Origin: Bacillota bacterium
GTDB taxonomy: Bacteria; Bacillota; Limnochordia; DTU080
Assembly (NCBI GenBank): GCA_012840225.1
Contig: DULU01000025.1
Span: 1 to 43,075 of the forward strand
Direction of reading: 5' to 3'
Length of the DNA stretch: 43,075 nt
Shown: positions 11,089 to 19,432 of the stretch, in pieces
Layout: each line of letters starts with the position of its first letter
Position numbering within the stretch: position 1 is the first letter of the stretch
Program-made: the position numbers and the translations under genes
The notes under the pieces: generated by a model
Seen by the model: the letters and a program-made list of their open reading frames with translations, nothing else
What the model was told of the DNA's origin: nothing
Database searches by the model: none

Positions 11089-12018
11089 GTGCAACGGGAT
11101 TTGTTGGGATTGAGGCAACTTGAGGCCAAGGACATGGAGTTGATCCTGGACACTGCGGAAGCCTGCAAGCAGCTGTTCAACCGGCCGGTGCGTAAAGTGC
11201 CTACTTTGCGCGGCAAAGTGGTGGTGAATCTTTTTTACGAGCCGAGCACGCGCACCAGGACTTCCTTTGAAATGGCCGGCAAGTGGCTGAGTGCCGATGT
11301 AGTGAACATAACGGTAGCCGCCAGCAGCGTGGTCAAAGGGGAGAGCCTGAAGGATACCGCCCGCACCGTACAGGCTCTGGGAGCCGATATGGTGGTGATC
11401 AGGCACCAGGCTTCCGGCGTCCCGCACCTTTTGGCCCGCACCGTCGATGCCGCCATCATCAACGCCGGGGACGGCACCAACGAGCATCCTACCCAAGGGT
11501 TGTTGGATATATTTACCATCCGCCAGCATCTGGGGCAGGTGGCCGGCAAGCGGGTGCTGATCGTGGGCGATATTTTACATAGCCGGGTGGCCAGATCCAA
11601 TATCTGGGGGCTGACCAAATTGGGCGCGGCCGTGATGGTCTGCGGGCCGCCCACTTTGATCCCGGTCGGTCTGGAGAAACTGGGCGTGACGGTAGTGGAA
11701 AACCTGGATGAGGTCCTGCCGCTTGCCGATGTGGTAAATGTCCTGCGCATTCAGCTGGAGCGGCAGAAAGCGGGCATGTTTCCCACTTTGCGGGAGTATA
11801 CCAGGCGCTGGGGCATCACCGGCGAACGCCTAGCGCTCATGCGGCCCGACGCTCTCCTGATGCATCCGGGACCGGCCAATCTGGGCGTGGAGATCAGCGA
11901 AGAGGCCACCTTGGACCGGCGTTCGGTTATCCGGGAACAGGTGACCAATGGGGTGGCGGTGCGCATGGCCGTCCTATATTTGCTAAGCGGAGGTGAGCGC
12001 CATGAGCTTGCTGATTAA
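11089..12018 (+). CDS. pyrB: Aspartate carbamoyltransferase catalytic subunit
   Basis: This 309-residue cytoplasmic enzyme condenses carbamoyl phosphate with aspartate to carbamoyl aspartate. The carbamoyl-phosphate motif STRTRTSFE is at about residues 53-61. [24 protein letters not shown] and the C-terminal [13 protein letters not shown] complete the family pattern. It starts at GTG 11089 after AGAGGAGT. It overlaps pyrC by 17 bases. No pyrI regulatory subunit is present, as is usual in Firmicutes. Confidence 0.96.
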
Positions 12019-13297
12019 AGGTGGTCGGGTGGTCGATCCGGCGGCAGGTCTCGACGGCTATTTCGATATACTGGTGGAAGAGGACCTGATTGCCGGGATT
12101 ATGGCGCCTGGGTCGGAACCGGTGGCGGCTGATGAGGTGTATGAGGCCGGAGGCCGTCTGGTGCTTCCGGGCTTGGTGGACCTGCACGTGCACTTCGGCG
12201 AACCGGGAAGGGAAGAGCGGGAGACGATCAAGTCGGGCACCATGGCAGCGGCCAGGGGCGGCTTCACCACTGTATTGATGATGCCGGACACCGAGCCGCC
12301 GCTGGATGATCCGGCTGTATTGGCGCAGGCGCTGGATATAGCTTCCAGAAAGAGTGCCATAAGAGTGTTGGCCGCCGGAGCCTTGAGCAAGGAGCTGGCC
12401 GGGCGGGAGATGACCGAACTGGCCGGTCTGGTGGCCGCCGGAGCCACCGGTTTGGTCGAGCCGGACCGCCTGCCGGCCAACAAAGCTTTGCTGCGCCGCA
12501 TCCTGCAATATGCCGCTCCCCTGGGGGCGTTCATCGCCGTGCATCCCGTCGAGTACGACTTGCTCGGCAGCGGGGTGATGCATGAAGGTGCGCAGTCCAC
12601 TGCTTTCGGCATACCGGGCATACCGGCGGCAGCCGAGGAGGTGGCGGTAGCCGCCTGCCTGCTTCTGATCGCCGCCACCGGGACGCCGCTCCATCTGTCG
12701 GGGATCAGCACCGCCGGGTCGGTGCGCCTGATCGCCAGGGCAAAGGAAGACGGGCTGCCGGTCACCTGCGATACCAGCCCCTATCACCTGGTGCTGACGG
12801 ATGAATATATGTCCGGTTATGAGGCGTCCGGGAAGCTTTTGCCGCCGCTGCGGCCGCCTGAGGACGTGGCCGCTTTGGTGGCGGGGCTGACCGACGGCAC
12901 CATTGACTGTGTCGCCACCAATCATACGCCCTATCCTCCGGAAGAAAAAGATATCGAGCTGGATAAGGCGCCCTTCGGGGCCGTGGCCCTGGAGGTAGCC
13001 TGGCCGCTTTTATATCATCACCTGGTGCGGGAAGGACGGCTGTCGCTCAGGCGTCTGGTGGAAGCCATGTCCGCCAAACCGGCCGCTTTGCTGGGCCTGG
13101 CCGGAAAAGGGACCGGCACCTTGCGCCTAGGTGGACCGGCCGATCTCGTCATCGTCAATCCGGAGGCGCAGAAAGTGGTGCAGCCGGAATCGTTTTGTTC
13201 TAAAGGCCGCAGCACGCCGGTGAGCGGCCGCTTGCTGAGCGGGTGGCCTGAAGCGACAGTGGCCGGAGGCCGCCTGGTATGGAGGGAAAGCCGTTGA
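12002..13297 (+). CDS. pyrC: Dihydroorotase
   Basis: This 431-residue type I dihydroorotase is an amidohydrolase that cyclises carbamoyl aspartate to dihydroorotate. The metal-binding [17 protein letters not shown] lies at about residues 60-76. Later metal and substrate regions include [30 protein letters not shown] and [17 protein letters not shown] 12002 follows GGAGGTGAG inside the end of pyrB; a GTG nine bases earlier is less well placed. It overlaps pyrB by 17 bases at its start and pyrF at its end, consistent with translational coupling in the pyr operon. Confidence 0.95.
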
Positions 13298-14391
13298 CCG
13301 CCAAAGCCGCCCAGTTTACCGCCCATTTTATGGATCGCCTGCTGGAAGCCTGCCGGCAGAAAAACTCCCGCCTGGTGGTGGGCCTTGATCCCCATATTGC
13401 CTTGCTTCCACAGGAACTGCTCCCCGGCGAGGGCCGCACCGGTGAAGACCGCACCGGTGAAGACCGCACCGGCGAGGGCCGGCCTGGGGAGGGTCGCACC
13501 GGGGCGGAGCCGAATCTGTCGGCGGAGGCGGCCTCCCGGGCCATCCTGGAATTCAACCGCCGGATTATTCCTGCCGTGGCCGACCATGCCGCCGCCGTCA
13601 AACCTCAACTCGCCTTTTATGAGCGCTGGGGATGGCACGGCATGCAAGCCTATGGTGAGACGGTGAAAATAGCCCATCAACACGGCCTCCTGGTCATTGC
13701 CGATGCCAAGAGATGCGATATTGGCTCCACAGCCGAAGCTTATGCGGCCGCCTATCTCGGCCCGGCGGGCGGAGAGAAAGCTGCGGACGGCGGGGTGGCT
13801 GAGGACGGTGCGGCAGCTATGGACAGTGCGGCGGCTGCGGACGATGTTGATATGGAGGCCGATGCCATCACCCTGCAGCCCTATATGGGCAAGGACGGCA
13901 TAGAGCCGTTCCTCAGGCGCTGGACGAGAGGCAAAGGCTTTTTTGTGCTGGTGCGCACCTCCAATCCCGGCGCCGGGGATGTTCAGGACCTCACCGTGGG
14001 TGAGGAGAAGCTCTATGAGCGGGTGGCTGCCCTGGTCGAGGAGTGGGGAAGCTCCTCCGTCAGCCATGCCAGCGGCTTTTCGGCTCTGGGGGCGGTAGCC
14101 GGGGCCACGTATCCCAGGGAACTGGCTAGGCTGCGACGCCTAATGCCGCACACCTTCTTCCTCGTGCCCGGCTACGGAGCGCAAGGCGGCGATGCCGCCT
14201 CCGTGCGCCATGCTTTCCTGCCGGACGGCAGCGGCGCGGTGGTCAATTCCAGCCGCCAGGTGATATTTGCCTACAGAGAGCAGAAATGCGGCGGCGAGAG
14301 GTGGAGGAAAGGCGAAGGTTGGTGGGCGGATTGCGCCCGGCAGGCAGCTGAACGCGCCAGGCTGGACATCAATGCGGTTCTGGCATTATAA
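13279..14391 (+). CDS. pyrF: Orotidine 5'-phosphate decarboxylase (type 2) with repeat insertions
   Basis: This enzyme decarboxylates OMP to UMP. The type 2 pattern is clear: RLVVGLDPH near residue 33, AVKPQLAFYERWG near 111, catalytic VIADAKRCDIGSTAEAY near 141, and a late FLVPGYGAQGGD. At 370 residues it is longer than the 270-310 I expect for the subfamily, because of two insertions. One is five exact 5-residue repeats (GE[GD]R[TP], residues 50-74). The other is an Ala/Gly/Asp-rich loop (about 163-195). Catalytic residues are intact, so it should be active. ATG 13279 has GGAGG upstream; TTG 13294, overlapping the pyrC stop as TTGA and preceded by GGAGGG, is an equally good alternative. Confidence 0.93.
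   Translation: MEGKPLTAKAAQFTAHFMDRLLEACRQKNSRLVVGLDPHIALLPQELLPGEGRTGEDRTGEDRTGEGRPGEGRTGAEPNLSAEAASRAILEFNRRIIPAVADHAAAVKPQLAFYERWGWHGMQAYGETVKIAHQHGLLVIADAKRCDIGSTAEAYAAAYLGPAGGEKAADGGVAEDGAAAMDSAAAADDVDMEADAITLQPYMGKDGIEPFLRRWTRGKGFFVLVRTSNPGAGDVQDLTVGEEKLYERVAALVEEWGSSSVSHASGFSALGAVAGATYPRELARLRRLMPHTFFLVPGYGAQGGDAASVRHAFLPDGSGAVVNSSRQVIFAYREQKCGGERWRKGEGWWADCARQAAERARLDINAVLAL
13426..13500 (+). repeat. Five-copy 15-bp tandem repeat within pyrF
   Basis: Five head-to-tail 15-base units encode GEGRT, GEDRT, GEDRT, GEGRP and GEGRT. Copies two and three are identical in DNA, implying recent amplification. The repeat keeps frame and falls between the first beta strand and the following helix of the decarboxylase barrel. 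Confidence 0.95.
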
Positions 14392-14426: not shown

Positions 14427-15572
14427 ATGCATGCCATGATGTTGCTCGCGGACGGTACCGTTTTTCATGGAGAGGCCATAGGCGCTGCGGGCGAAGTTTA
14501 TGGGGAAGTGGTCTGCCATACCAGCATGACCGCCTACCCTGAAGTGTTGACCGATGCTGCCTGCAAAGACGACATCGTGGTGTTCACCTATCCGTTGATA
14601 GGCAATATCGGAGTGCCGGCCGAGGACGGTGAATACAGCCGGCCGCAGGTTAAGGGCGTGGTGGCCGGGGAGATCTGCACCAAGCCCAGCAACTGGCGCA
14701 CCGTGGACCGGCTGGAGGATTACTTGCTGACTCATGGTGTGCCGGCTGTTACCGGTATCGACACCAGAGCGCTCAGCCGCCACCTGAGGCGCAACGGCAC
14801 CATGAGAGGCGCCATCGTCTGCGGGGACACGCCACCGGAGGCGGTCCTGGCCAGGCTGAGAGAAGAGGCTGATGATCCTGCCAGGGACCTGATAGCCTCA
14901 GTCACGCCAGCCGCACCTTATGTTTACCATAAGGGCAGCGGCCGCCGGGGCCATGTGGTGGTGGTGGACTGCGGCGCCACCCGCCGGGTTTTAAGCGTTC
15001 TCAGTGCCGGTGATTACCGGGTCACGGTGGTACCGGCTTATACGGCTGCCGAGGAACTATTGGCCTTCTCTCCGGACGGCGTTATAATCACCGACGGTCC
15101 GGGTGATCCCAAGGCCGCTGCGCCGCTGGTGGAGACCACTCGCCGGCTGCTCGGGCAAAGGCCCCTGTTTGGTTTCGGCCTGGGGCAGCTGATCATCGCC
15201 CTGGCGCTCGGGGCCGACACCTATAAGCTGAAATATGGCCACCGGGGAGCCAATCATCCGGTAGAGGATCTGGCGGCCGGCCGGGTGTTTATCACCTCCC
15301 AAAACCACGGCTTCGCCGTGAAAGAGGGCACGCTTCCCGCCGGGATAACGGTCTCTCATGTCAATCTGAACGACGGTACCATCGAGGGGTTTTTCCACGA
15401 GCAGTGCCCTGTTTTTGCCGTGCAGTTTTTTCCTGAAGCCGCCATGGATCAAGGAGCAGGTCCGGCGTGGCGCGGCGATTTGTTCAACCGCTTTCTGGCG
15501 GCGACAGGCGAACGGAAACAGAAGCGGGAGTTGGGCGGCAGCGGGATAGTGGCGACCTTCCTGCCAAGCTGA
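14427..15572 (+). CDS. carA: Carbamoyl-phosphate synthase small subunit, glutaminase site lost
   Basis: This 381-residue protein aligns by eye with CarA along its whole length: N-terminal HTSMTAYPEVLTD and FTYPLIGNIGV, then GIDTRALSRHLR, then a class I glutamine amidotransferase domain with ITDGPGDPK and KLKYGHRGANHPV. CarA normally hydrolyses glutamine and passes ammonia to CarB. Here the nucleophile motif GICLGHQ reads GFGLGQL, so Gly251 replaces the catalytic Cys and Leu replaces the glutamine-binding Gln. The catalytic His of HPEA is Phe335 (FPEA). The rest is conserved and the frame is intact, so this is not simple decay. ATG 14427 follows TGAGGTG. No carB follows; pyrK is next after 63 bases. 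It probably serves structurally in an ammonia-dependent synthase. Confidence 0.9.
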   Translation: MHAMMLLADGTVFHGEAIGAAGEVYGEVVCHTSMTAYPEVLTDAACKDDIVVFTYPLIGNIGVPAEDGEYSRPQVKGVVAGEICTKPSNWRTVDRLEDYLLTHGVPAVTGIDTRALSRHLRRNGTMRGAIVCGDTPPEAVLARLREEADDPARDLIASVTPAAPYVYHKGSGRRGHVVVVDCGATRRVLSVLSAGDYRVTVVPAYTAAEELLAFSPDGVIITDGPGDPKAAAPLVETTRRLLGQRPLFGFGLGQLIIALALGADTYKLKYGHRGANHPVEDLAAGRVFITSQNHGFAVKEGTLPAGITVSHVNLNDGTIEGFFHEQCPVFAVQFFPEAAMDQGAGPAWRGDLFNRFLAATGERKQKRELGGSGIVATFLPS

Positions 15573-15635: not shown

Positions 15636-16469
15636 TTGTGCCAGGACGATAACAAAAGGCAGTTTATCACGAGGATCACCAGCCACAGGCAATTGACCCG
15701 GGATATATGGGAACTCAGATGCGATTTGCCGTCCGGCATGCTTTCGGCCTCGCCGGGGCAATTTGTCATGATAGAGGTTTCCCCTTCTCTGCAGCCTTTC
15801 TTGCGCCGGCCGTTCAGCATTGCTTACCGGCAACCGGCCCCCTCCGGAAAGGGGGAGGAATTTGCCGTCATCTACCGAGTGGTCGGGGAAGGTACCCGTC
15901 GGCTGAAGAGTCTTTCGCCTGGCGATGAGGTGAATATCATCGGGCCGCTGGGTAGGGGTTTCACCTGGCCGCGCCGTGATGACCGGCGGCCGGTGCTCAT
16001 CGGTGGAGGCCTCGGGGTGCCGCCGCTCCTCTTTTTGGCGCAAAGGATGGTCGCCTCGGGGGTGGTGCCGCAGTTTTTCGCCGGCTTTACCCGTGCCGAT
16101 CAGGCTGTCGGCCTTGATATGCTGAGTGAGCTGGGTGTGGTGCCGGTGGTGGCCACGGATGACGGCTCGCTCGGCCGGAGAGGCTTGGTCACAGAGCTTC
16201 TTCCCGACCCTCCTCCCGGTGATCTCTGCGTCTATTCCTGTGGTCCGCTGCCCATGTTGCAGGCCGTGGCTTCCTGGTGCAGAACCGGAAGGATACCTTG
16301 CGAAGTTTCCCTGGAAAACAGGATGGCCTGCGGTGTGGGTGCCTGTCTGGGCTGTGCTTGGCCGGCTGCAGTCCCGGAGAGCCACGATAGAGACTCTCGC
16401 CGTTATGTGCTTATCTGCAAAGACGGCCCGGTATTTGCTGCTGAGGAGGTATTCGCTTTTGACCGTTGA
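15636..16469 (+). CDS. pyrK: Dihydroorotate dehydrogenase electron transfer subunit
   Basis: This 277-residue iron-sulfur flavoprotein transfers electrons from dihydroorotate dehydrogenase 1B to NAD+. The FAD-binding ferredoxin-reductase domain shows RRPFSIAY near residue 55. The nucleotide-binding region shows IGGGLGVPPLLFLA near residue 124. The C-terminal 2Fe-2S site has CGVGACLGC and a fourth Cys in VLICKDG. It starts at TTG 15636 after AAAAGGAG. The stop lies inside the first codons of pyrD. It pairs with the class 1B pyrD that follows. Confidence 0.93.
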   Translation: MCQDDNKRQFITRITSHRQLTRDIWELRCDLPSGMLSASPGQFVMIEVSPSLQPFLRRPFSIAYRQPAPSGKGEEFAVIYRVVGEGTRRLKSLSPGDEVNIIGPLGRGFTWPRRDDRRPVLIGGGLGVPPLLFLAQRMVASGVVPQFFAGFTRADQAVGLDMLSELGVVPVVATDDGSLGRRGLVTELLPDPPPGDLCVYSCGPLPMLQAVASWCRTGRIPCEVSLENRMACGVGACLGCAWPAAVPESHDRDSRRYVLICKDGPVFAAEEVFAFDR

Positions 16470-17418
16470 TGTTGATGATGAAGAGAAGACCTGGTGGCGC
16501 TCGCCGCTGCTCCGCACTTCCCTCGCTGGCCTGACTTTGCAAAACCCGGTGTTGGCGGCTTCCGGCACCTTTGGCTACGGCATAGAGTATGGCGGGCTGG
16601 TCGATGTTACGAAGCTCGGCGGGATCTGCACCAAAGGTGTCAGCATAGACCCTTGGCCCGGCAACAGGCCGCCGCGGCTCGCGGAAACGCCGGCGGGAAT
16701 GCTCAACGCCATCGGCTTGCAAAATCCCGGTGCGGCGGCTTTTGCAGAGGACTATTTGTCCTGGCTGGCAGAGCAGACTCCGGCTGTGGTGGTGAACATA
16801 GTCGGACGGACCATTGAGGAATATTCCGCCGTTGCCGCCTTCCTGGACCGAAAAGCGGGGATAGACGCCCTGGAAATCAATATTTCCTGTCCCAACATCA
16901 AGAAAGGCGGCCTCTCCTTTGGCACCGATCCGCAGGCTGCCGCCGCAGTGGTGAAGGCAGTGCGCCGGGTAACTTCCCTCCCCTTGATCGCCAAGCTCAC
17001 CCCTAATGTCACCGATATCACCCAGATTGCCTGCGCCGTGGAGGCGGCCGGGGCCGATGCCGTCAGTCTGATCAATACCATAACCGGTATGATCATCGAC
17101 GTTAACCGGCGCCGGCCGCTTTTGGCCAATGTCTTCGGCGGGCTCTCCGGGCCAGCGATCATGCCGGTGGCCTTACGCATGGTGTGGCAGGTATATGAGG
17201 CGGTAAAAATCCCCATCATCGGCATGGGTGGCATCACCAGCGCCCATGATGCCCTGCAGTTCATCATGGCGGGAGCGAGAGCCGTGGCTGTGGGCTCGGC
17301 TACTTTCCGCCGTCCGGATACCATGGTCGAGGTGGTGCGGGGGCTTTATGATTATTGCCGGGAGCAGCGCACCTCCATCGCCGCTTTGGTGGGCGTGGCG
17401 CATGGCGGTGCTCATTGA
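16459..17418 (+). CDS. pyrD: Dihydroorotate dehydrogenase, class 1B catalytic subunit
   Basis: This 319-residue FMN enzyme oxidises dihydroorotate to orotate. NPVLAASGTFGYGIEY (about residues 30-45) and GGICTKGVSIDPWPGN are class 1B features. The catalytic base is the Cys in EINISCPNIKKGG near residue 143, as in class 1B. The C-terminus has IIGMGGITSAHDALQF and an FMN phosphate loop (AVAVGSATF). I set the start at TTG 16459, nine bases after GAGGAGG and overlapping the end of pyrK by 11 bases. The longer upstream frame runs inside pyrK and is not supported. Confidence 0.94.
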   Translation: MTVDVDDEEKTWWRSPLLRTSLAGLTLQNPVLAASGTFGYGIEYGGLVDVTKLGGICTKGVSIDPWPGNRPPRLAETPAGMLNAIGLQNPGAAAFAEDYLSWLAEQTPAVVVNIVGRTIEEYSAVAAFLDRKAGIDALEINISCPNIKKGGLSFGTDPQAAAAVVKAVRRVTSLPLIAKLTPNVTDITQIACAVEAAGADAVSLINTITGMIIDVNRRRPLLANVFGGLSGPAIMPVALRMVWQVYEAVKIPIIGMGGITSAHDALQFIMAGARAVAVGSATFRRPDTMVEVVRGLYDYCREQRTSIAALVGVAHGGAH

Positions 17419-17461: not shown

Positions 17462-18052
17462 ATGACGGAAATTAACGTTAAGGAAGCCGAACGGGCCATG
17501 GAGTTATTCCGGCAGGCCGGGGCTCTCCTGAAGGGACACTTTTTGCTGACGAGCGGCAGGCATTCCGATACATATCTGGAAAAGAGCCTTGTGCTGCAAT
17601 ATCCCCGTTTTGTCGATGAGTTGAGTGCCATGCTGGCTGAAAAATTTGCCGCCGACAAGATAGAAGTGGTGGTCGGACCGGCGGTGGGCGCCATCGTCCT
17701 GGCCCACGGCGTGGCCAGGGTGCTCGGCACCAGAGCTATATTCACCGAGCGGGAAGGCGGCCGGTGCGTTTTGCGGCGCGGCTTTTCCTTGGCACCAGGG
17801 GAAAGGACCCTGGTGGTAGAAGATGTAGTTACCACGGGCGGCTCGGTGCGGGAAGTGATCGACTTGGTGAGAGCTACCGGAGCCGACCTGGTGGGTGTGG
17901 GCTGCCTCCTGGACCGCAGCGGGGGACGTACCGACCTGGGCGTGAGGACGGCTTTTCTGGCGCAGATTGAGGCTCCTTCCTGGTTGCCTGCAGATTGTCC
18001 CCTGTGTGCAGCAGGTGTGCCTCTCACCAGCCGCGGCAGCCGCCATATATAA
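17462..18052 (+). CDS. pyrE: Orotate phosphoribosyltransferase
   Basis: This 196-residue type I PRTase joins orotate and PRPP to make OMP. It shows GHFLLTSGRHSDTYLEKS near residue 25, VVGPAVGAIVLAH near 70, FTEREGG near 94 and the PRPP loop TLVVEDVVTTGGSVREVIDL near 117. It is the last recognised pyrimidine gene of the operon. ATG 17462 follows GAGAAAGGTG. A DUF58 gene follows after 42 bases without a visible terminator, so transcription may continue. Confidence 0.95.
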   Translation: MTEINVKEAERAMELFRQAGALLKGHFLLTSGRHSDTYLEKSLVLQYPRFVDELSAMLAEKFAADKIEVVVGPAVGAIVLAHGVARVLGTRAIFTEREGGRCVLRRGFSLAPGERTLVVEDVVTTGGSVREVIDLVRATGADLVGVGCLLDRSGGRTDLGVRTAFLAQIEAPSWLPADCPLCAAGVPLTSRGSRHI

Positions 18053-18094: not shown

Positions 18095-19432
18095 GTGAGC
18101 GCGACATTCTGGCGCCGTTGCCTATGGGCGTTGCTTTTGGCCGCCCTCATTTTCAGCGGCAGGTTTTTGTATATCACCTTATACAGCCTTTTTATTTTGT
18201 ATTTTTTGACCCGCTGGCTGACGCGCACCGCCTATCGCGCCATGACCATACAAAGGACTCTGGACCGGAACCGGGTGTTCAGAGGTGAAGAGGTGGAAGC
18301 GACGATCACGGTGACCAACAATAGCTTCGCCCCTTTGGTGTCGGTCGCTCTCACCGATGAGATGCCTTACAAACTCCCCCCGCAGACACCGCACACAGCG
18401 ATTTTTGCTCTGGCTCCGCGGCGGCAGGTGTCTTTTTCCTATCGGGTGCGCACCAGGGAAAGAGGAGTATATCACCTGGGGCCGATCGATCTGGCCGCCG
18501 CCGACCCTTGGGGCTTGGAAACCTTGCGGGACAGGGTGGAATCCTTCAGCGAAGTGATCGTCTATCCGAAAGTATATCCCCTCAGCAATCTAGGCTTGCC
18601 TTCGAGTTTGCCTTTTGGGGAAATAAAGACGCGCCATCGCTTTTTCGAGGATCCGGCCCGCACCATCGGTTTGCGGGAATATGTGCCAGGCGATCCCCTG
18701 AAGCGTATTCACTGGAAAGTGAGCGCCCGTACGGGAGTCCTGCACACCAGGGAGTTTCAGCCGACGATAGCCCTGGAAACGGGCATTTTTCTCAATCTGA
18801 ATATCGATGAATATGATGTGCAGTTTCTGGACCGGGCTCTGGAGTTTGCCATAGAAGTGGCCGCTTCTTTGGCCTACTATCTCTACCGGCGGCGGCAAGC
18901 GGTAGGCCTGGTGAGCAACGGCCGGGATGGCGGCATCATAGCTGTGCCGGCGAGTGCCCAGCTCGCTCCAGCTTCCCAACTCGCTCCAGCTTCCCAGCTC
19001 GCCCCAGCCGCACAATCTACCCCCGCTGCACAGTCCGCCTCTTCGGAGCCTTTCTCAAGCAGGCTGCCGGTTCAGCCGGACAACGCTTTGATCCGCCTCC
19101 CTTCCCGGAAGGGAGCCGGCCAGCTGATGCACATCATGGAGACCCTGGCGCGCATTGAAGGAGCCAAGGGTGGCGCTTTCAGCTCCGTTTTGACAGATGA
19201 GGGGCGGCAGTTGCCCTGGGGTTCCACCTTGTTGGTAGTGACGCCGGAGGATACCCCTGAGATAGTCAATGCCCTCTTCAGCCTGCGCCGGGCCGGGTAT
19301 CATGCCGTCACCCTGCTGGTCGGCAACACTTGCCACCACCCGGGTTTCCTCAGTAACCCGCCCATGCCGGGCCTCTACTTCTACCGGTGCCGTCATGAGA
19401 CCGAACTGGGAGCTTTGAACAAGACCGGCTAA
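18095..19432 (+). CDS. DUF58 domain protein, membrane-anchored
   Basis: This 445-residue protein begins with two hydrophobic segments (about residues 8-21 and 25-38). A beta-rich region follows (VFRGEEVEATITVTNNSFAPLVSV), then the DUF58 signature near residue 190 (TIGLREYVPGDPLKRIHWKVSART). DUF58 proteins are often encoded with MoxR ATPases and transglutaminases; neither is present here. A Gln/Pro/Ala repeat loop at residues 288-317 interrupts the region after the signature. The start is GTG 18095 after AAAGGGGCG. Function is unknown. Its position between pyrE and purE is unusual and it may simply be co-transcribed. Confidence 0.85.
   Translation: MSATFWRRCLWALLLAALIFSGRFLYITLYSLFILYFLTRWLTRTAYRAMTIQRTLDRNRVFRGEEVEATITVTNNSFAPLVSVALTDEMPYKLPPQTPHTAIFALAPRRQVSFSYRVRTRERGVYHLGPIDLAAADPWGLETLRDRVESFSEVIVYPKVYPLSNLGLPSSLPFGEIKTRHRFFEDPARTIGLREYVPGDPLKRIHWKVSARTGVLHTREFQPTIALETGIFLNLNIDEYDVQFLDRALEFAIEVAASLAYYLYRRRQAVGLVSNGRDGGIIAVPASAQLAPASQLAPASQLAPAAQSTPAAQSASSEPFSSRLPVQPDNALIRLPSRKGAGQLMHIMETLARIEGAKGGAFSSVLTDEGRQLPWGSTLLVVTPEDTPEIVNALFSLRRAGYHAVTLLVGNTCHHPGFLSNPPMPGLYFYRCRHETELGALNKTG
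18956..19045 (+). repeat. 18-bp tandem repeat within the DUF58 gene
   Basis: Three clean 18-base units encode AQLAPA, SQLAPA and SQLAPA. Two degenerate units (AQSTPA, AQSASS) follow. The frame is preserved. The repeat forms a Pro/Ala/Gln-rich linker, similar in style to the repeats in pyrF and fmt. Confidence 0.9.

Follow-up and report, generated by a model that had tools for sequence, protein, structure and literature searches.

A CarA without its catalytic cysteine and histidine in a bacterial pyrimidine operon: probable structural subunit of an ammonia-dependent carbamoyl phosphate synthetase

Introduction

Can a CarA that has lost the catalytic residues of its glutaminase still serve a bacterial carbamoyl phosphate synthetase (CPS), and if so, with which nitrogen source? 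The question is raised by a stretch of 43,075 nucleotides of Bacillota DNA (hereafter the window), whose pyr operon holds an open carA frame with replacements at both the catalytic Cys and the catalytic His. Glutamine hydrolysis in E. coli cannot proceed without Cys269 and His353, and ammonia is turned into carbamoyl phosphate by CarB (PMC6245113). Bacterial CPS is assigned to the glutamine type in reviews (PMC6245113, PMC6022934), one of which places full-length ammonia-only CPS beside animal CPS I and lists all bacterial CPS under the glutamine type (PMC6022934); glutamine is named in review as the physiological donor of E. coli CPS. Vertebrate CPS I carries Ser for Cys, at Ser294 in human CPS1, and takes ammonia as its substrate (PMC4655335). 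The original prediction for the window rightly invoked this animal precedent, and proposed that loss of both residues leaves either an ammonia-dependent enzyme or a purely structural subunit. In the open-access literature, to which our search was confined, we came across no account of a naturally glutaminase-dead bacterial CarA.

A CarA fold without the glutaminase residues

The carA gene of the window (14427..15572, + strand) encodes 381 aa in an open frame and is identified by both sequence and fold. Its two domains score above their cut-offs (PF00988, 148.5 bits; the class-I amidotransferase domain PF00117, 126.1 bits), as does TIGR01368, the NCBIfam model for the "glutamine-hydrolyzing" small subunit (379.9 bits versus a cut-off of 307.35). 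The protein matches the E. coli small subunit (PDB 1c30 and others) with an E-value of ~1e-82, and its AlphaFold model (mean pLDDT 87.2) overlays on that subunit with a TM-score of ~0.89 and 40% identity in the structural alignment.

The codons of the nucleophile elbow (15171..15191, + strand) read GGT TTC GGC CTG GGG CAG CTG, giving GFGLGQL where E. coli CarA has GICLGHQ. In an alignment with E. coli CarA that is locally ungapped, Gly251 (15177-15179) falls on Cys269 and Phe335 (15429..15431) on the catalytic His353; on the same + strand, Leu255 (15189-15191) takes the place of the glutamine-contacting Gln273 and Ala45 (14559..14561) that of Ser47 in the glutamine site. Neither the two catalytic positions (Cys269 and His353) nor the two of the glutamine site (Ser47 and Gln273) keep their residues, and Gln254 stands at His272. 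Shifting the motif by one residue, so that H-Q would be set against Q-L differently, was rejected because the alignment has no gap around the motif. The open frame, the motif and the residue assignments of the original prediction are all borne out.

Its further statement that the rest of the protein is conserved holds for the fold, the CarB-contacting half and Glu355 (Glu337; 15435-15437, + strand), but not for Ser47, for Lys202 (Thr185) or for the loop that follows the HPEA motif. Gly241, Gly243 and Asn311 (E. coli numbering) are retained along with Glu355. The altered loop, residues 339-348 (AMDQGAGPAW, versus SPGPHD in E. coli; 15441..15470, + strand), carries a 4-residue insertion as well as substitutions, and is modelled with low confidence (pLDDT < 50). 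In E. coli, this loop helps to form the wall of the ammonia tunnel. At the E. coli Gly293 position of the tunnel, the window protein has Ala275, and a bulky blocker is absent. The protein thus has a glutaminase-like domain lacking the catalytic Cys, as in CPS I, but glutaminase and synthetase are not fused: the ORF spans 381 aa and carB lies on another contig.

The pyr operon, carB and a second CarA

The window is contig C21 of a draft genome (G000) of 3.55 Mb in 154 contigs, 96.6% complete with 4.3% contamination. On the + strand, carA is preceded by pyrB (aspartate carbamoyltransferase, 11089..12018; Pfam OTCace_N/OTCace), pyrC (dihydroorotase, 11993..13297; Amidohydro_1 and operon position) and pyrF (OMP decarboxylase, 13279..14391; OMPdecase). 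It is followed by pyrK (electron-transfer subunit of dihydroorotate dehydrogenase B, 15636..16469; DHODB_Fe-S_bind), pyrD (dihydroorotate dehydrogenase, 16501..17418 with an approximate start; DHO_dh) and pyrE (orotate phosphoribosyltransferase, 17462..18052; Pribosyltran and operon position). Two tandem-repeat inserts, in frame and of low complexity, interrupt pyrF at 13424-13502 and 13780-13843, with periods of 15 and 18. Between pyrE and purE/purB lies a gene for a DUF58 protein (18095-19432) with a QLAPAS-type tandem repeat at 18957-19008.

In this order, pyrB-pyrC-pyrF-carA-pyrK-pyrD-pyrE, pyrK comes directly after carA with no carB between. The gene is therefore a pyr operon carA as originally described, but its carB is found in an arg cluster instead: the sole carB of the genome lies on contig C65, with an argD-like gene ahead of it and argG and argH behind. 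All catalytic residues and tunnel-gate residues (Cys232, Ala251, Ala314) of this CarB are intact.

A second CarA is split over the ends of contigs C124 and C126, which share a 14-base in-frame overlap. Joined, it comprises 364 aa and is intact, with GICLGHQ and HPEA; it is a solitary gene, with glnA and glutamate-synthase-like genes nearby. In tetranucleotide signature, C124/C126 agree with the window (correlations 0.74-0.78). The genome also holds two pdxS copies that are 79% alike (C116 and C126), the latter adjoining one half of the intact CarA; they could be paralogues, or could reflect contamination on C126. This second pdxS, together with a neighbour protein of the C124/C126 CarA that is only 37% like its counterpart in G002, leaves contamination or transfer as a possible source. 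The intact CarA may thus be real, or may be a contaminant or transferred.

Cys-less CarAs across the class and phylum

We scanned 399 genomes of the phylum with a DNA pattern for the Cys-to-Gly motif, which matched 51 genomes. Because a reversed control pattern finds matches in a number of genomes too, we counted only hits that tblastn showed to be CarA; since the pattern sought Gly only, the resulting count is a lower bound. Combining pattern, tblastn and further copies, we found at least 37 Cys-less CarAs in 35 genomes from 15 family groups, where a CarA of any kind is present in 285/399 genomes. Residue 269 is Gly in 35 of the 37 and Ser in the other two. In 26 genomes with a Cys-less CarA, an intact CarA was not detected; these include G087 and G328, single-contig assemblies of 98-99% completeness. 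The other class-I amidotransferases of these two genomes retain both Cys and HPE, indicating that the loss is specific to CarA.

Within the class, 27 of the 73 genomes examined have a CarA, and ten carry one Cys-less copy each, nine with Gly and one (G005) with Ser; the His is lost in all nine that are readable at that position. The Cys-less protein is the only CarA found in eight of these genomes (G001, G003, G004, G005, G006, G007, G011 and G015), and G000 and G002 have both a Cys-less and an intact CarA. A position in the pyr operon is common to 7/10. In five of those seven (G001, G004, G005, G006 and G011), a single carB follows an argD-like gene, the arrangement also seen in G000, and Cys-less carA is paired with carB in G007, G002 and G003. 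G003 (loci L183 and L184) has two carB genes and one CarA, which is glutaminase-dead, leaving the carB of its arg cluster with no CarA of its own. In G012 and G025 it is an intact CarA that occupies the pyr operon. CarA was undetected in every genome examined of families f8 and f13 of the class.

In family f31, all 11 CarA-bearing genomes have a Cys-less copy, with Asp for the catalytic His, in the operon pyrB-pyrC-carA-carB-pyrK-pyrD. Five of them, including G087 and G328, have no other CarA, and six have an additional intact copy. One dead and one intact CarA also occur together in G106. In G078, both CarAs (L283 and L304) have Gly for Cys with the His kept, one after argD with carB and the other in pyrB-pyrC-carA-carB, so both the arginine and the pyrimidine CPS of this genome seem glutaminase-dead. 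Across 20 CarB copies surveyed, the catalytic residues are retained in all, one copy being cut before the last three, and the gate residues are retained in 18/20.

Beyond the phylum, the contig scan covered 80 named distant CarAs, of which 79 have both Cys and His. One Gemmatimonadetes CarA (L085, 6001-7071) keeps the Cys (GICLGHQ) and has Arg for the catalytic His (YRPEASPGPHD).

Losses cluster in the glutamine site and tunnel

We compared the 37 Cys-less CarAs with 62 intact CarAs in E. coli numbering. Losses cluster at positions 47, 202, 269, 353 and 357-362: among Cys-less CarAs, His353 is retained in 6/35 readable copies, Ser47 in 13/37, Lys202 in 21/37 and Pro360 in 11/37. Of the Gly/Phe pair of the window protein, Gly is nearly constant across these copies, with Ser in two; the His is mostly lost, kept in six and replaced by Asp in f31. 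Gly may be preferred at the nucleophile elbow owing to the strained backbone there. Asp45, Gly241, Gly243, Gln310, Asn311 and His312 are mostly retained.

Positions invariant among intact CarAs show where the changes fall. Dead CarAs mostly keep 15-17 of 18 such positions in the N-terminal domain (11/18 in one row) and 15-18 of 18 in the amidotransferase domain outside the site. Of up to 16 in the site and tunnel, no more than 6-13 remain. The window protein keeps 15/18 and 15/18 in the first two sets, its sister in G001 16/18 and 16/18, and the window protein has more site changes than that of G004. With the changes concentrated in site and tunnel in this way, the loss falls on glutamine use, and the subunit is otherwise kept. 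In f31, the former active-site loop has become a new conserved QFDPEG[FY]xGYSETGF, or close variants of it, across genera (L232-L237, L239), which suggests a new function for the lost active site.

Selection and history

For close pairs of Cys-less carA genes, dN/dS (NG86) is 0.07-0.20. In a genus that carries both a dead and an intact carA, the value for each of the two genes is 0.09-0.10. For the window protein itself no relative is close enough to calculate dN/dS; its similarity to 13 intact CarAs is 46.3%, against 47.5% for G001, where the dead CarA is the sole copy. A tree built from 99 CarAs calls for 11 changes of state by parsimony and at least five by well-supported branches, but does not settle which way each change went. 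The window protein and that of G001 form a group (support 92), so the dead state is probably older than the split of the genera.

The original prediction had named as counter-evidence a second intact carA alongside relaxed selection on this one. The second copy is present, as the possible contaminant on C124/C126, but neither a broken frame nor clear relaxed selection is seen. A simple pseudogene is thus unsupported, given the open frame, a similarity to intact CarAs at the level of G001 and the low dN/dS of the type.

Discussion

Our analysis, drawn from sequences and predicted structure, favors a model in which the window CarA is a glutaminase-dead but folded structural subunit that binds CarB in an ammonia-dependent CPS; we consider this probable. 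Of the two outcomes originally proposed, an ammonia-dependent enzyme or a structural subunit, this reading would combine both, and it fits best with the many near-complete genomes in which a Cys-less CarA stands alone with an intact CarB; the second intact CarA makes it less secure in G000 itself. CarA would bind CarB as a structural, possibly allosteric, subunit, and the holoenzyme would turn free cytoplasmic ammonia into carbamoyl phosphate for the pyrimidine pathway. Ammonia could enter through the opened tunnel wall or by an alternative path such as that proposed for human CPS1, which uses external ammonia and whose entry path may differ from the old glutaminase site (PMC4655335). In E. 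coli, variants whose tunnel is blocked or perforated retain activity when ammonia is supplied from outside (PMC4655335). Without glutamine, the E. coli enzyme works only at very high ammonia (PMC6245113), so an enzyme of the type proposed here would need either enough ammonia or a better affinity for it. The absence of carB from the pyr operon of the window, and the six Cys-less CarAs that retain the His, also weigh against the model. For bacteria with only a Cys-less CarA, the model implies ammonia, not glutamine, as the nitrogen source of carbamoyl phosphate. In G000 an intact CarA may compete for the same CarB, giving glutamine-fed and ammonia-fed forms; the dead copy could also be dispensable there, and its role is less certain than in genomes where it is the only CarA.

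The coexistence of dead and intact CarAs invites another reading, in which the dead protein is a regulatory or decoy subunit that occupies part of the CarB and so reduces activity with glutamine, or that joins intact CarA in mixed oligomers. G000, with an intact CarA and a single CarB, would suit such a role, as would the dead and intact pairs of six f31 genomes, G002 and G106. We nevertheless consider it unlikely, since in 26 genomes no intact CarA was detected that it could regulate, and in f31 and elsewhere the dead gene is directly followed by its own carB. The same intact copy in G000 could instead mean that the window gene is a decaying leftover, its residues lost neutrally once an intact CarA was gained. 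Its slightly fewer invariants than in G001 and its greater number of site changes than in G004 point that way, but its open frame in a compact operon does not, nor does its similarity to intact CarAs, equal to that of G001 with its sole dead CarA. The dead state is grouped with G001 and so probably predates the split of the genera, and dN/dS is low among close relatives of the type, although not calculable for the window gene from a close relative of its own; we rate a leftover as rather improbable.

The newly conserved loop of f31 indicates a site that is not simply eroding, and leaves some room for ammonia fed in trans by another glutaminase, or for an altered pocket that hydrolyzes another amide. 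Both are very improbable: the operons examined show no candidate glutaminase, and the replacements vary from lineage to lineage, a pattern that does not point to a single new activity. Sequencing or assembly error is rejected, as is chance. Although the window comes from a draft of 154 contigs, an error would have to produce several separate changes in one site while keeping the frame open, and parallel states occur in 34 other genomes (36 other Cys-less CarAs in the phylum, most also lacking the His), which makes it hardly credible.

Setting these alternatives against the structural-subunit model, we more tentatively extend the latter to a broader history, which we regard as possible but somewhat against the odds: the phylum would have repeatedly switched its CPS from glutamine to ammonia while retaining a full-length pseudo-glutaminase subunit, and at least one family, f31, would have remodelled its dead site into a new conserved feature, for example an inlet for ammonia or a site for an effector. 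If the model is true, a recurrent and stable bacterial pseudo-glutaminase would overturn the view that all bacterial CPS are of the glutamine type, and provide a natural bacterial parallel, with many replicates, of the vertebrate transition from CPS II to CPS I. It would also show a role of CarA besides making ammonia. The automatic name "glutamine-hydrolyzing" would then be wrong for these genes, to which TIGR01368 applies it at scores well above its cut-off, and metabolic models that rely on this name would assign them the wrong nitrogen donor.

Among known systems, E. coli CarA (PDB 1jdb, 1c30, 1cs0) shares the two-domain fold, the families and the pathway of the window protein, but uses glutamine through Cys269, His353 and Glu355, of which the window protein lacks the Cys and the His, with Ser47 and Gln273 replaced as well.

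A CarA that has lost its nucleophile can no longer use glutamine, and ammonia-dependent synthesis can remain; Cys269 of E. coli was the subject of work by Rubino et al. in 1986 (cited in PMC6245113). Engineered E. coli mutants such as C269S (crystal structure 1c30) resemble the window protein in this loss, but the Cys-less CarAs described here are natural, stable and recurrent, and have mostly also lost His353, Ser47 and the tunnel loop. Bacillus has paired CPS enzymes, pyrAA/pyrAB for pyrimidines and carA/carB for arginine, and some relatives of the window genome, such as f31, likewise separate a pyrimidine-operon CarA from another one. Both Bacillus enzymes are taken to use glutamine. Unlike in those pairs, the pyrimidine copy here has no working glutaminase.

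Prokaryotic carbamoyl phosphate synthesis independent of CarA-CarB is known from smaller enzymes, the carbamate-kinase-like CPS of Pyrococcus and the small CPS of Methanobrevibacter smithii (PMC6022934); these are different or reduced enzymes, whereas the bacteria described here retain the full CarA-CarB type, with its CarA dead. The closest counterpart is vertebrate CPS I (human CPS1, 5dot/5dou; PMC4655335), which retains a glutaminase-like domain lacking the catalytic Cys and takes its nitrogen from ammonia, as we propose for the bacterial enzyme. CPS I is one fused mitochondrial chain that needs N-acetylglutamate and has Ser at the Cys position (PMC4655335), whereas the bacterial system has two chains and Gly; in the tunnel, Gln318 blocks in human CPS1 (PMC4655335) where the window protein has Ala275. 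With these differences, the Cys-less CarA enzyme would most likely be a bacterial, two-chain parallel of CPS I.
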